Positions 10,708 to 60,760 of a stretch of DNA of 64,000 nt are shown piece by piece. The number at the start of each line of letters is the position of its first letter. Position 1 is the first letter of the stretch. This stretch comes from a bacterium. Its GTDB lineage: Bacteria; UBP15; UBA6099; JAJRTR01. The notes beneath the pieces were generated by a model. That model saw nothing but the letters and a program-made list of their open reading frames with translations, was not told the DNA's origin and searched no databases. The stretch spans positions 1 to 64,000 of the forward strand of contig JAJRTR010000011.1 of NCBI GenBank assembly GCA_024278215.1, written 5' to 3'. Both the position numbers and the translations under genes were made by a program.

Positions 10708-10810
10708 TTAAATTATTGCTGGTTTTGTAATTAAGCCTGAATTCACCAGTGTCACGTCAAGCTTGTAATGCCACAAGATGTGTAGACAGGGGCGGGGGCA
10801 CCGTACCACG

Positions 10811-10872
10811 CCCTGCACTTTTATCGTTTTTTCGCTAACCCATCTTACGTCTTTTCTTTGTTGACACGACAC
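10811..10872 (+). repeat. 62-bp interspersed repeat, copy A
   Basis: The segment runs from CCCTGCACTTTTA through CGCTAACCCATCTTACG to TTGTTGACACGACAC. A second full copy lies inverted at 60309-60370, and a shorter copy with the core CCCATCTTACGTC lies at 53836-53866. It occupies the gap between metK and the next gene, 15 bp before an intrinsic terminator. No open frame or long terminal inverted repeat was seen. The remainder of the 332-bp gap (10708-11039) holds nothing else recognisable apart from a 10-bp match (GAGCCAATTG, about 10985-10994) to the MITE terminus. Confidence 0.7.
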
Positions 10873-10887
10873 TATTGATCACAGTTG

Positions 10888-23634: not shown

Positions 23635-23975
23635 GACAGCACCTCTTCAGTGTCCGGTTTTACTTCATCATATCACGACGTTGCGAAAACTCATATTACC
23701 ATTCCGCCATAGCGCACACATATAAAGCTTTGCGTCTTTTATGGGTGTTTATTGTCCAGTATGCGCTGGATAAAATTATATGTTAAAGAACTAACTCACG
23801 CAATAATCATTATATATTTGAGCCGATTGCAGAATTCCTGTTCTGTCGCAGCCGGTGTAAAAATGCTATGTGATTTGTTAAAATGGAATAACAAACACTA
23901 ACATATTTACAGTCATGTAATTTTTTCACTTGAAGTAATAATGGTGGTATATACTTTTGTGGTGGTGAGCGGGAA
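23635..23975 (+). other. Divergent intergenic region, 341 bp
   Basis: Separates the minus-strand run starting at 23634 from the plus-strand zinc-ribbon gene. It contains one truncated MITE end (23820-23861) and is otherwise AT-rich. TTGTTA (about 23876) with TAACAT 18 bp further on is a weak promoter candidate for the plus-strand gene. No RNA gene or open frame was recognised. Confidence 0.5.
23820..23861 (-). repeat. Truncated MITE, right end only
   Basis: Read on the minus strand, this matches the right terminal 40 bp of the 179-bp element: CGGCTGCGACAGAACAGG, then AATTCTGCAATCGGCTC at the terminus. The left part of the element is absent. Confidence 0.6.
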
Positions 23976-27146: not shown

Positions 27147-27249
27147 TCTATATATAACGAACTTTTCGCCCGGGTTGCTTCACAAAGAAATCCGGGAAAT
27201 CGTGATAACGTCCATTCTACTTCCGTTGCGGCGGTGGCTCGGGACCGGT

Positions 27250-27300
27250 CTCCTGAGAATTCAGCTCGACCTCGCCACGAACATAATTTGTAATTGGCTC
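27250..27300 (-). repeat. Truncated MITE, left end only
   Basis: On the minus strand this starts GAGCCAATTACAAATTATG and continues GTGGCGAGGTCGAG, matching the first 50 bp of the 179-bp element; the rest is missing. It lies in the 314-bp gap between the chemoreceptor gene and cheB. Confidence 0.65.
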
Positions 27301-36876: not shown

Positions 36877-37055
36877 GAGCCAATTGCAAAATTCTGATTC
36901 GGCTGCGGTCGGCTGCAATTGTCCATAGCTGCGTTGTCGGCGCAAAATCATCCTCAACGTACTCCACGAGTACGCCTGCGGGGATTTTGCACTTCCGCCT
37001 TGCTTCTGAATAATTTCGTTCGACCTCGCTTCGAACATAATTTTGCAATTGGCTC
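36877..37055 (-). mobile_element. 179-bp MITE-like element, full copy 1
   Basis: Bounded by GAGCCAATTGCAAAATT (36877-36893) and its inverse AATTTTGCAATTGGCTC (37039-37055). The flanking tetranucleotide GTAT is duplicated (36873-36876 and 37056-37059), which marks transposition. An internal nested inverted repeat (GCAAAATC...GATTTTGC) is conserved with the other copies. On the minus strand one frame is open through the whole element (SQLQNYVRSEVER...RILQLA). It fills most of the 319-bp gap between the small zinc-ribbon gene and the diguanylate cyclase gene, splitting the region into two transcription units. Confidence 0.85.
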
Positions 37056-42863: not shown

Positions 42864-43084
42864 ATATATATACACACATCATGCTGTCGGCTAAACATAA
42901 TTCTACAAAACACATGCCATCCGATCAAGCTTTATTATGATTTATACATACGGAATTACTGTATTTTCCCTGCATTCAGGATGATCTTTCGTTATGTTAC
43001 GTCGCCTCCGCGCTGTAATCCGGGAAATCATTTATACGAATCGGATTGCCCCGGTATCGGGAAAAAGATAAAATATATGTGACA

Positions 43085-43100
43085 CAATTGTCGACAATTG
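43085..43100. promoter_or_regulatory. Perfect 16-bp palindrome upstream of nikR
   Basis: CAATTGTCGACAATTG is its own reverse complement. It ends 60 bp before the nikR start and partly overlaps a truncated MITE end. It does not match the known NikR operator (GTATGA-N16-TCATAC), so its binding protein, if any, is unknown. Confidence 0.4.
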
Positions 43101-43139
43101 CAGCCGACCGCAGCCGAATCAGAATATTGCAATCGGCTC
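43091..43139 (+). repeat. Truncated MITE, right end only
   Basis: Matches the last 49 bp of the element (CAATTGCAGCCGACCGCAGC, then AATATTGCAATCGGCTC at the terminus) with no left part. It occupies the nikR leader, ending 21 bp before the nikR start codon. Confidence 0.7.
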
Positions 43140-43160
43140 AAGGAAAATGAGGCACGATCT

Positions 43161-43682: not shown

Positions 43683-43860
43683 GAGCCAGTTGCAAAATTA
43701 TGTTCGTAGCGAGGTCGAGCGAAATTGTTCAGAGCAAGGCGGAGGTGCAAAATCCTCGCAGGCGTACTTGTAAAGTACGTCGAGGACGATTTTATGCCGA
43801 CAACGCAGCTATGGACAATAGCAGCCGACCGCAGCAGAACCAGAATTTTGCAATTGGCTC
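43683..43860 (+). mobile_element. 178-bp MITE-like element, full copy 2
   Basis: Termini GAGCCAGTTGCAAAATTATG and AATTTTGCAATTGGCTC, with a 5-bp duplication TAATA on both sides (43678-43682 and 43861-43865). The inner hairpin is kept (GTACTTGTAAAGTAC core). Relative to the other full copies one base is missing near position 46, breaking the conserved open frame in its first third; the latter part of that frame stays open and continues in frame into the exported-protein gene downstream. Confidence 0.85.
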
Positions 43861-58521: not shown

Positions 58522-58700
58522 GAGCCAGTTGCAAAATTATGTTGGAAGTGAGGTCGAGCGAAATTGGTCTAAAGCAAGGCGGAGGTGCAAAATCCCCGCA
58601 GACGTACTTGTAGAGTACGTCGAGGAAGATTTTGCGCCGACAACGAAGCTGTTAACAATTGCAGCCGACCGCAGCCGAATCAGAATTTTGCAATTGGCTC
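58522..58700 (+). mobile_element. 179-bp MITE-like element, full copy 3
   Basis: Termini GAGCCAGTTGCAAAATTATG and AATTTTGCAATTGGCTC with a flanking 4-bp duplication ATTT (58518-58521 and 58701-58704). Internal hairpin: outer arms GCAAAATC (58587-58594) and GATTTTGC (58628-58635), inner arms GACGTACT (58601-58608) and AGTACGTC (58614-58621). A frame starting at the left terminus is open across the element (SQLQNYVGSEVERN...ADRSRIRILQLA), closely matching copy 1. It stands between ruvA and the argG leader. Confidence 0.88.
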
Positions 58701-58810
58701 ATTTAAATATCCCGGTTTTCTTTTTTAGTATCTTACGACTGAAATGCTACGCAGGATGGTAAAGAAATGCTGAAAAGAGATCGGGGAAAGCTGGAGCTTC
58801 CAGTAACAGG

Positions 58811-58836
58811 CGTTTCCAAGGTAAACCTTGGAAACG
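58811..58836. promoter_or_regulatory. Strong hairpin in the argG leader region
   Basis: CGTTTCCAAGGT (58811-58822) and ACCTTGGAAACG (58825-58836) are perfect 12-bp complements with only AA between them. No T-tract follows, so it is not an intrinsic terminator. The smaller CTGGA-GCT-TCCAG dyad lies just before it. Confidence 0.6.
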
Positions 58837-58846
58837 ATGAAACTCT

Positions 58847-58894
58847 GTGTGCCGTGCTCAAACCGTAGACCGTGCGTGTGCCGTGCTCAAACCG
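58847..58894 (+). repeat. 19-bp direct repeat in the argG leader region
   Basis: GTGTGCCGTGCTCAAACCG occurs at 58847-58865 and 58876-58894. Bases 58883-58892 of the second copy (GTGCTCAAAC) also pair with GTTTGGGCAC (58900-58909) to make a 10-bp stem with a 7-nt loop, and CCGCATTT (58892-58899) can pair with AAATGCGG (58912-58919) as an alternative. A further small dyad CCGGC-TAC-GCCGG lies at 58931-58943. Confidence 0.6.
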
Positions 58895-58997
58895 CATTTG
58901 TTTGGGCACGAAAATGCGGCCTGTTTGGTTCCGGCTACGCCGGGTTAGGTACTGATCAAGTAGATATTAACATAATCAGAGAAGGAGCAGCAATACC

Positions 58998-60203: not shown

Positions 60204-60308
60204 TCGTTCACAGGCGCATTGTAATCGGCGTAAGCAGCTTCGAGCGCCGGGAGTTTTCTGTTGCTTGAACATATTTCTTATAGAACTTGTGCGATTTTAT
60301 AAAAGGTA

Positions 60309-60370
60309 GTGCCATGTCAACAAAGAAAAGATGTAAGATGGGGTAGCGTAAAAACTGTAAAAGTGTAGAG
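60309..60370 (-). repeat. 62-bp interspersed repeat, copy B
   Basis: On the minus strand it reads from CTCTACACTTTTACAG through CGCTACCCCATCTTACATC to TTGTTGACATGGCAC, matching copy A at 10811-10872 with scattered changes. It sits about 105 bp after argG and before the nucleotidyltransferase remnant. Confidence 0.7.
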
Positions 60371-60464
60371 CGGGGTCACCCTGCACGTTCGTGCGACATT
60401 ACATGCCTGACGTGACAGTAGTAGAATTTATGGCGACACGATCCGGAACAAAAGGTCAAATTTC

Positions 60465-60760
60465 AGTCATGCCGAACTTCTTCAACACCTTAAGGAGTGT
60501 CTCTTTGACTTGTATGGCGGTCGGTTCCGCAGGCTGGTGCTGTACGGCAGCGTGGCGCATACCCCCTCATGATAGAGGCTAAAAAAGAGGGAGCCCGGTC
60601 TGACTCTATGGAACAATCGAGCACGCGGAACATGAGGAGGCGGAAGACGATGTCGGAGCTTCCGGAAGAATACTCCGAGCCATTCACAAAGCACATACGG
60701 ATATTTTTCCTCTGGATGCGTTGGCGGTCGAAAGCGACAAAAGCGAATAAAAAAACATAA
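60465..60760 (+). pseudogene. Decayed MNT-type nucleotidyltransferase remnant
   Basis: Conceptual reading from 60465 gives SHAELLQHLKECLFDLYGG, then RFRRLVLYGSVAH, which matches the start of minimal nucleotidyltransferases (RLVLYGSxARG motif). The frame then stops at 60570-60572. A shifted frame (60570-60609) reads EAKKEGARSDSMEQ, resembling the continuation ARxDSDxD, and a third frame from about 60610 reads IEHAEHEEAED...IHKAHTDIFPLDALAVE before a stop near 60750. The pieces lie in order but in different frames, and the metal-binding DxD is lost. MNT proteins are often antitoxins paired with HEPN partners; no HEPN remnant was found. This is inferred from motif resemblance, so confidence is moderate. 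The rest of the 683-bp argG-argH gap holds repeat copy B and the argH leader. Confidence 0.5.

Follow-up and report, generated by a model that had tools for sequence, protein, structure and literature searches.

MITEs that lie between genes, form stable hairpins, have truncated derivatives and reach up to hundreds of copies have been reviewed in PMC10969869. Compared by description rather than by sequence, one of the closest to the family analysed here is the Chunjie MITE of Geobacter uraniireducens (PMC10969869), which is likewise intergenic, measures 178–235 bp, has conserved ends and direct repeats and exists in many truncated copies, but counts ~38 full-type copies vs the ~250–340 copies of our family. 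The Correia elements of Neisseria, QMITE1/2 of Coxiella and ERIC (PMC10969869) are, again by description, similarly short, palindromic and mostly intergenic, with tens to hundreds of copies; unlike for them, no hybrid-promoter or host-function signal was detected in our family. The Rickettsia palindromic elements (RPEs; PMC10969869) are palindromes of ~150–180 bp, too, and one subfamily of our element has an open frame from end to end, but RPEs often lie in frame in genes and none of the sampled copies does. The family was noticed in a 64,000-nt stretch of DNA (the window) from a UBP15-type bacterium. As a kind of element it is well known, i.e., well preserved but ordinary mobile DNA. With high confidence, we consider it a MITE with a 178-bp and a 179-bp subfamily that owes its multiplication to a DDE transposase, which acted in trans, recognised the 17-bp ends, used AT-rich C-WWWW-G targets and left 4-bp duplications.

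Three full copies are present in the window (Table 1), as an earlier note made from the letters alone had reported, and their 17-bp inverted ends correspond to GAGCCARTTGCAAAATT and its complement without a single mismatch. Altogether, nine GAGCCARTTGCAAAATT end matches with ≤3 mismatches were found in the window vs 0.51 expected. The flanking repeats that the note had named are all there as well; with 4 bp as the usual duplication length of the family, TAATA most plausibly consists of a duplicated AATA and one base that matches by chance. Searching the window with an nhmmer profile built from sampled copies added three remnants that were absent from the first list, one of them weak. One remnant (window 43082-43150) stops ~10 bp 5′ of AAGGAAAATG, the probable start codon of a gene for a nikR-type regulator, and may be part of the leader of this gene.

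Table 1. Full copies and remnants of the MITE in the window, and the shortest derivative in the sample (its position is given with the stretch label).
Feature	Position	Element orientation	Target-site duplication	Context or support
Full copy, 179 bp	36877-37055	(-)	GTAT	between GGDEF response-regulator gene and TPR/Ig-domain gene
Full copy, 178-bp subfamily	43683-43860	(+)	(T)AATA	3′ of nikR-type gene
Full copy, 179 bp	58522-58700	(+)	ATTT	44 bp 3′ of ruvA
Truncated copy, right-hand ~58 bp of element	43082-43139	(+)		nhmmer E 7.7e-14
Truncated copy, left-hand ~50 bp of element	27250-27300	(-)		nhmmer E 2e-8
Probable degenerate right end, weak	23820-23855	(-)		nhmmer E 0.005; 2 TIR mismatches
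46-bp derivative, scarcely more than two ends	L035:1501-1546		TATC	

The genome-wide search that the note had suggested revealed a family far larger than its copies in the window would suggest. The host assembly (G000; 207 contigs, 4.55 Mb) contains 672 end sites (334 + 338) at ≤2 mismatches vs none for a reversed-pattern control. Copies were sampled stretch by stretch, and about half of them were read. A sample of 859 kb, consisting of the window and stretches from large contigs that were picked by size, not content, contained 49 full and 35 partial copies, or one full copy per 17.5 kb, which translates into ~250–340 copies genome-wide and roughly 1% of the genome. Most copies are 178 or 179 bp long. 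Thus, the family combines the characters of a MITE: a short sequence (<500 bp) without a transposase gene, terminal inverted repeats, target-site duplications and dispersal in many copies. Many host contigs start or stop within a copy, and the abundance of the element accounts for many of the assembly's contig breaks. A further 144 genomes, six of them from the same order, gave no match to the MITE, and neither did plasmids or viral contigs; among the matches listed, three GAGCCARTTGCAAAATT-type ends in other genomes were at chance level and had no matching second end. A search of the literature met the end sequence in no relevant paper, and within that literature, whose scope left ISfinder and most subscription journals outside, the family in this host lineage appears to be unreported.

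The 178-bp form corresponds to the 179-bp form minus one A at position 51, and the two consensus sequences differ at nine other positions. In the first sample, divergence was lower in the 178-bp copies, with 6.4 vs 13.5 substitutions per copy. Because two old, strongly diverged copies (L095 and L221) also lack the A at position 51, either of the two forms may be ancestral.

Among 132 full copies read with their flanks, an exact direct repeat of 4 bp was found in 81, of 5 bp in six and of 3 bp in three. The flanks of a further 25 agree at three of four bases, compared to two copies in a control shifted by 4 bp. Approximately one-fifth of the full copies lack a duplication; we read these as aged, recombined or mis-bounded. 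Even the deleted derivatives, the shortest of which measures 46 bp (Table 1), retain the duplication along with the two ends. The inverted ends, the 4-bp duplications in many copies and the high copy number strongly support the earlier proposal that a non-autonomous element has transposed. Reconstruction of empty sites yielded the target consensus C-WWWW-G with an AT-rich core, with G at +1 in 66% of the cases and C in 0%, and with C at −1 in 41%. Placement is intergenic for 62 of 64 copies, and divergent, tandem and convergent gaps are occupied approximately as their share of length in the window predicts.

Other repeats were met alongside the MITE. Two small inverted-repeat elements with the ends GATTCGTGTGCAATAAGTC and GATTCCGGCGCAAAAAGTCC reside inside MITE copies (L124:1-274 and L125 around 1501), where they occupy the same insertion place, each after GAGCCAATTGCAAAATT and with the 6-bp repeat AAAATT. 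Another dispersed repeat, with the motif GCTAACCCATCTTACGTCTTTTCTTTGTTGACACGACA, occurs at positions 10750-10874 and 60283-60473 of the window, and the MITE copies in L014 and L074 are apparently inserted in such a repeat. Two more stretches of the window (27168-27250 and 58723-58949) are repeated elsewhere in the genome, and the latter adjoins the MITE copy at 58522.

The 4-bp target duplication points to a DDE-type enzyme. Such a transposase would act in trans by recognising the 17-bp ends, and its insertions at AT-rich C-WWWW-G sites would leave the 4-bp duplications. As the note had stated, no mobilising transposase is encoded in the window, nor was one with GAGCCARTTGCAAAATT ends found in the rest of the 207-contig assembly, where many breaks inside copies could have caused such an element to be missed; the enzyme may have been lost or may be absent from the assembly. 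The three host DDE_Tnp_1 (IS4/DDE_Tnp_1) transposases were rejected as partners, having other or no matching ends, and searches of the host for the domains DDE_Tnp_1_2, DDE_5 and DUF772 gave no hits. Only a handful of sites combine exact ends with a different interior. None of these borders a transposase, and they turned out to be nested elements, ordinary genes or old fragments, not autonomous partners. In L206, an end pair spanning 2.1 kb has a matching TGAT and surrounds ordinary host genes; we attribute it to chance. IS1380, IS5, IS701 and IS1182 were considered as families of origin. One degenerate 3′ remnant of an IS1380-type (DDE_Tnp_1_4) transposase is located at C44:16102-16254 (L074:2103-2255), ~140 bp from a MITE copy, with no matching ends visible. 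Since the IS1380 family is known for duplications of 4–5 bp, an origin of the MITE from this family is a lead only.

The earlier note had also described a frame that is open from end to end, and suggested that it was either a by-product of composition and structure or a short peptide, encoded or donated as in RPEs. The frame is indeed open in both 179-bp copies of the window and broken by a 1-bp deletion and stops in the 178-bp copy. This division extends to the family, with frame +1 open in 39 of 47 colinear 179-bp copies vs one of 61 copies of the 178-bp form. However, open frames arise easily in this sequence, as frame −2 is open in 54 of the same 61 copies. An RPE-like reading, in which the 179-bp form donates a peptide, its frame is kept by selection and the 178-bp form is a relative with a broken frame, is quite improbable, although several observations favour it. 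The element together with its 4-bp duplication measures 183 bp, i.e., 61 codons. Moreover, eight of the nine consensus differences are synonymous in frame +1 (p 0.0008), and so are 12 of the 20 variants common to at least six 179-bp copies (p 0.0015; 0.0005 if matched for base-pairing class), in overlapping sets of small numbers; neither set shows a synonymous excess in frames +0 and +2. Yet third positions are the same in frames −2 and +1, which means that periodicity by itself does not tell the two apart.

Further results speak against a peptide. No sampled copy is in frame with coding sequence on both sides, consistent with the intergenic placement, and the 178-bp subfamily multiplied despite two stops in the frame. 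Stops are also carried by the deep lineage L095/L221. The synonymous excess disappears in private variants and in all variants taken together (37 of 158 vs 43.9 expected). Coding in the 179-bp form had been suggested by a first simple-permutation frame test that ignored shared ancestry, but the tree-based version over all changes did not show it, with 71 synonymous changes vs 71.7 expected and eight stops gained vs 13.5 expected (z −1.6). Codon usage in frame +1 is poor for the host (log-odds −9.1). No significant relative of the peptide was found in Pfam, plasmids or viral contigs, and the sole NCBIfam listing, NF008561, has an E value of 0.062 and falls well short of its cut-off. The peptide-coding idea is mostly not supported and not established, and it escapes outright refutation because a synonymous bias remains among the shared variants of the 179-bp lineage. 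We do not count this residual signal as evidence of coding but regard it as unexplained. That the 179-bp lineage was a peptide-donating mobile element (+61 codons) with a frame kept by purifying selection in its source copies, the non-coding 178-bp form having multiplied without it, is quite improbable.

The note had named an internal nested hairpin. The element folds end to end into one long hairpin: as RNA, the copy at 43683 reaches a minimum free energy of −79.6 kcal/mol (z −9.7; other strand z −5.5), and the copy at 58522, folded as DNA, a z of −7.3. Of 108 copies, 105 show a strand bias in folding, the G-U pairs of the favoured strand being A-C mismatches on the opposite one; this bias may reflect RNA-level selection or just a shared ancestor.

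Private variants were taken as mutations after insertion and variants common to at least six copies as carried by source elements. In the two subfamilies, only one of 20 and none of 18 shared variants fell into the ends vs 3.8 and 3.4 expected, and the pair-breaking fraction of shared variants was 0.30 and 0.17 vs 0.54 and 0.57 expected (p 0.0055 and <0.0005). In contrast, singletons were at expectation for both ends and pairing. Consistently, changes on internal branches of the trees cost less folding energy than expected in both subfamilies (z ~ −3), whereas those on terminal branches showed no such saving. Because shared variants spare ends and hairpin and private ones do not, we infer that intact ends and the hairpin, or near-palindromic arms, were probably needed for copying and not maintained by the host. 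The pairing part of the pattern could alternatively stem from templated correction between the arms.

Retention by the host, either for a transcript hairpin (terminator, RNase III site, sRNA) or as Correia-like mobile promoters, is very improbable. The great stability and strand bias of the hairpin would fit such a role, as would an outward TTGCAA −35-like hexamer within each end, but singletons do not spare the hairpin. Hybrid promoters from the MITE ends were rejected, as −10-like hexamers are not enriched at a spacing of 16–18 bp from the end. At the one copy scanned, an intrinsic-terminator-like site was absent, and placement tracks the available intergenic length, not gene ends. In the best explanation, inserted copies decay neutrally and have no detectable host function. 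REP/REPIN-like palindromes mobilised by a Y1 (RAYT) transposase share the palindromic structure, intergenic location and high copy number, but REPIN/IS200-type transposition leaves no target duplication and 4-bp duplications are the rule here, which makes this origin next to impossible.

If the residual coding signal of the 179-bp lineage were true, the family would add a second, independent example to the RPE-like elements. As a very abundant, apparently recently active MITE in which ends and hairpin are spared by shared but not by private variants, it constitutes a clean natural data set on what a transposase needs of its substrate.
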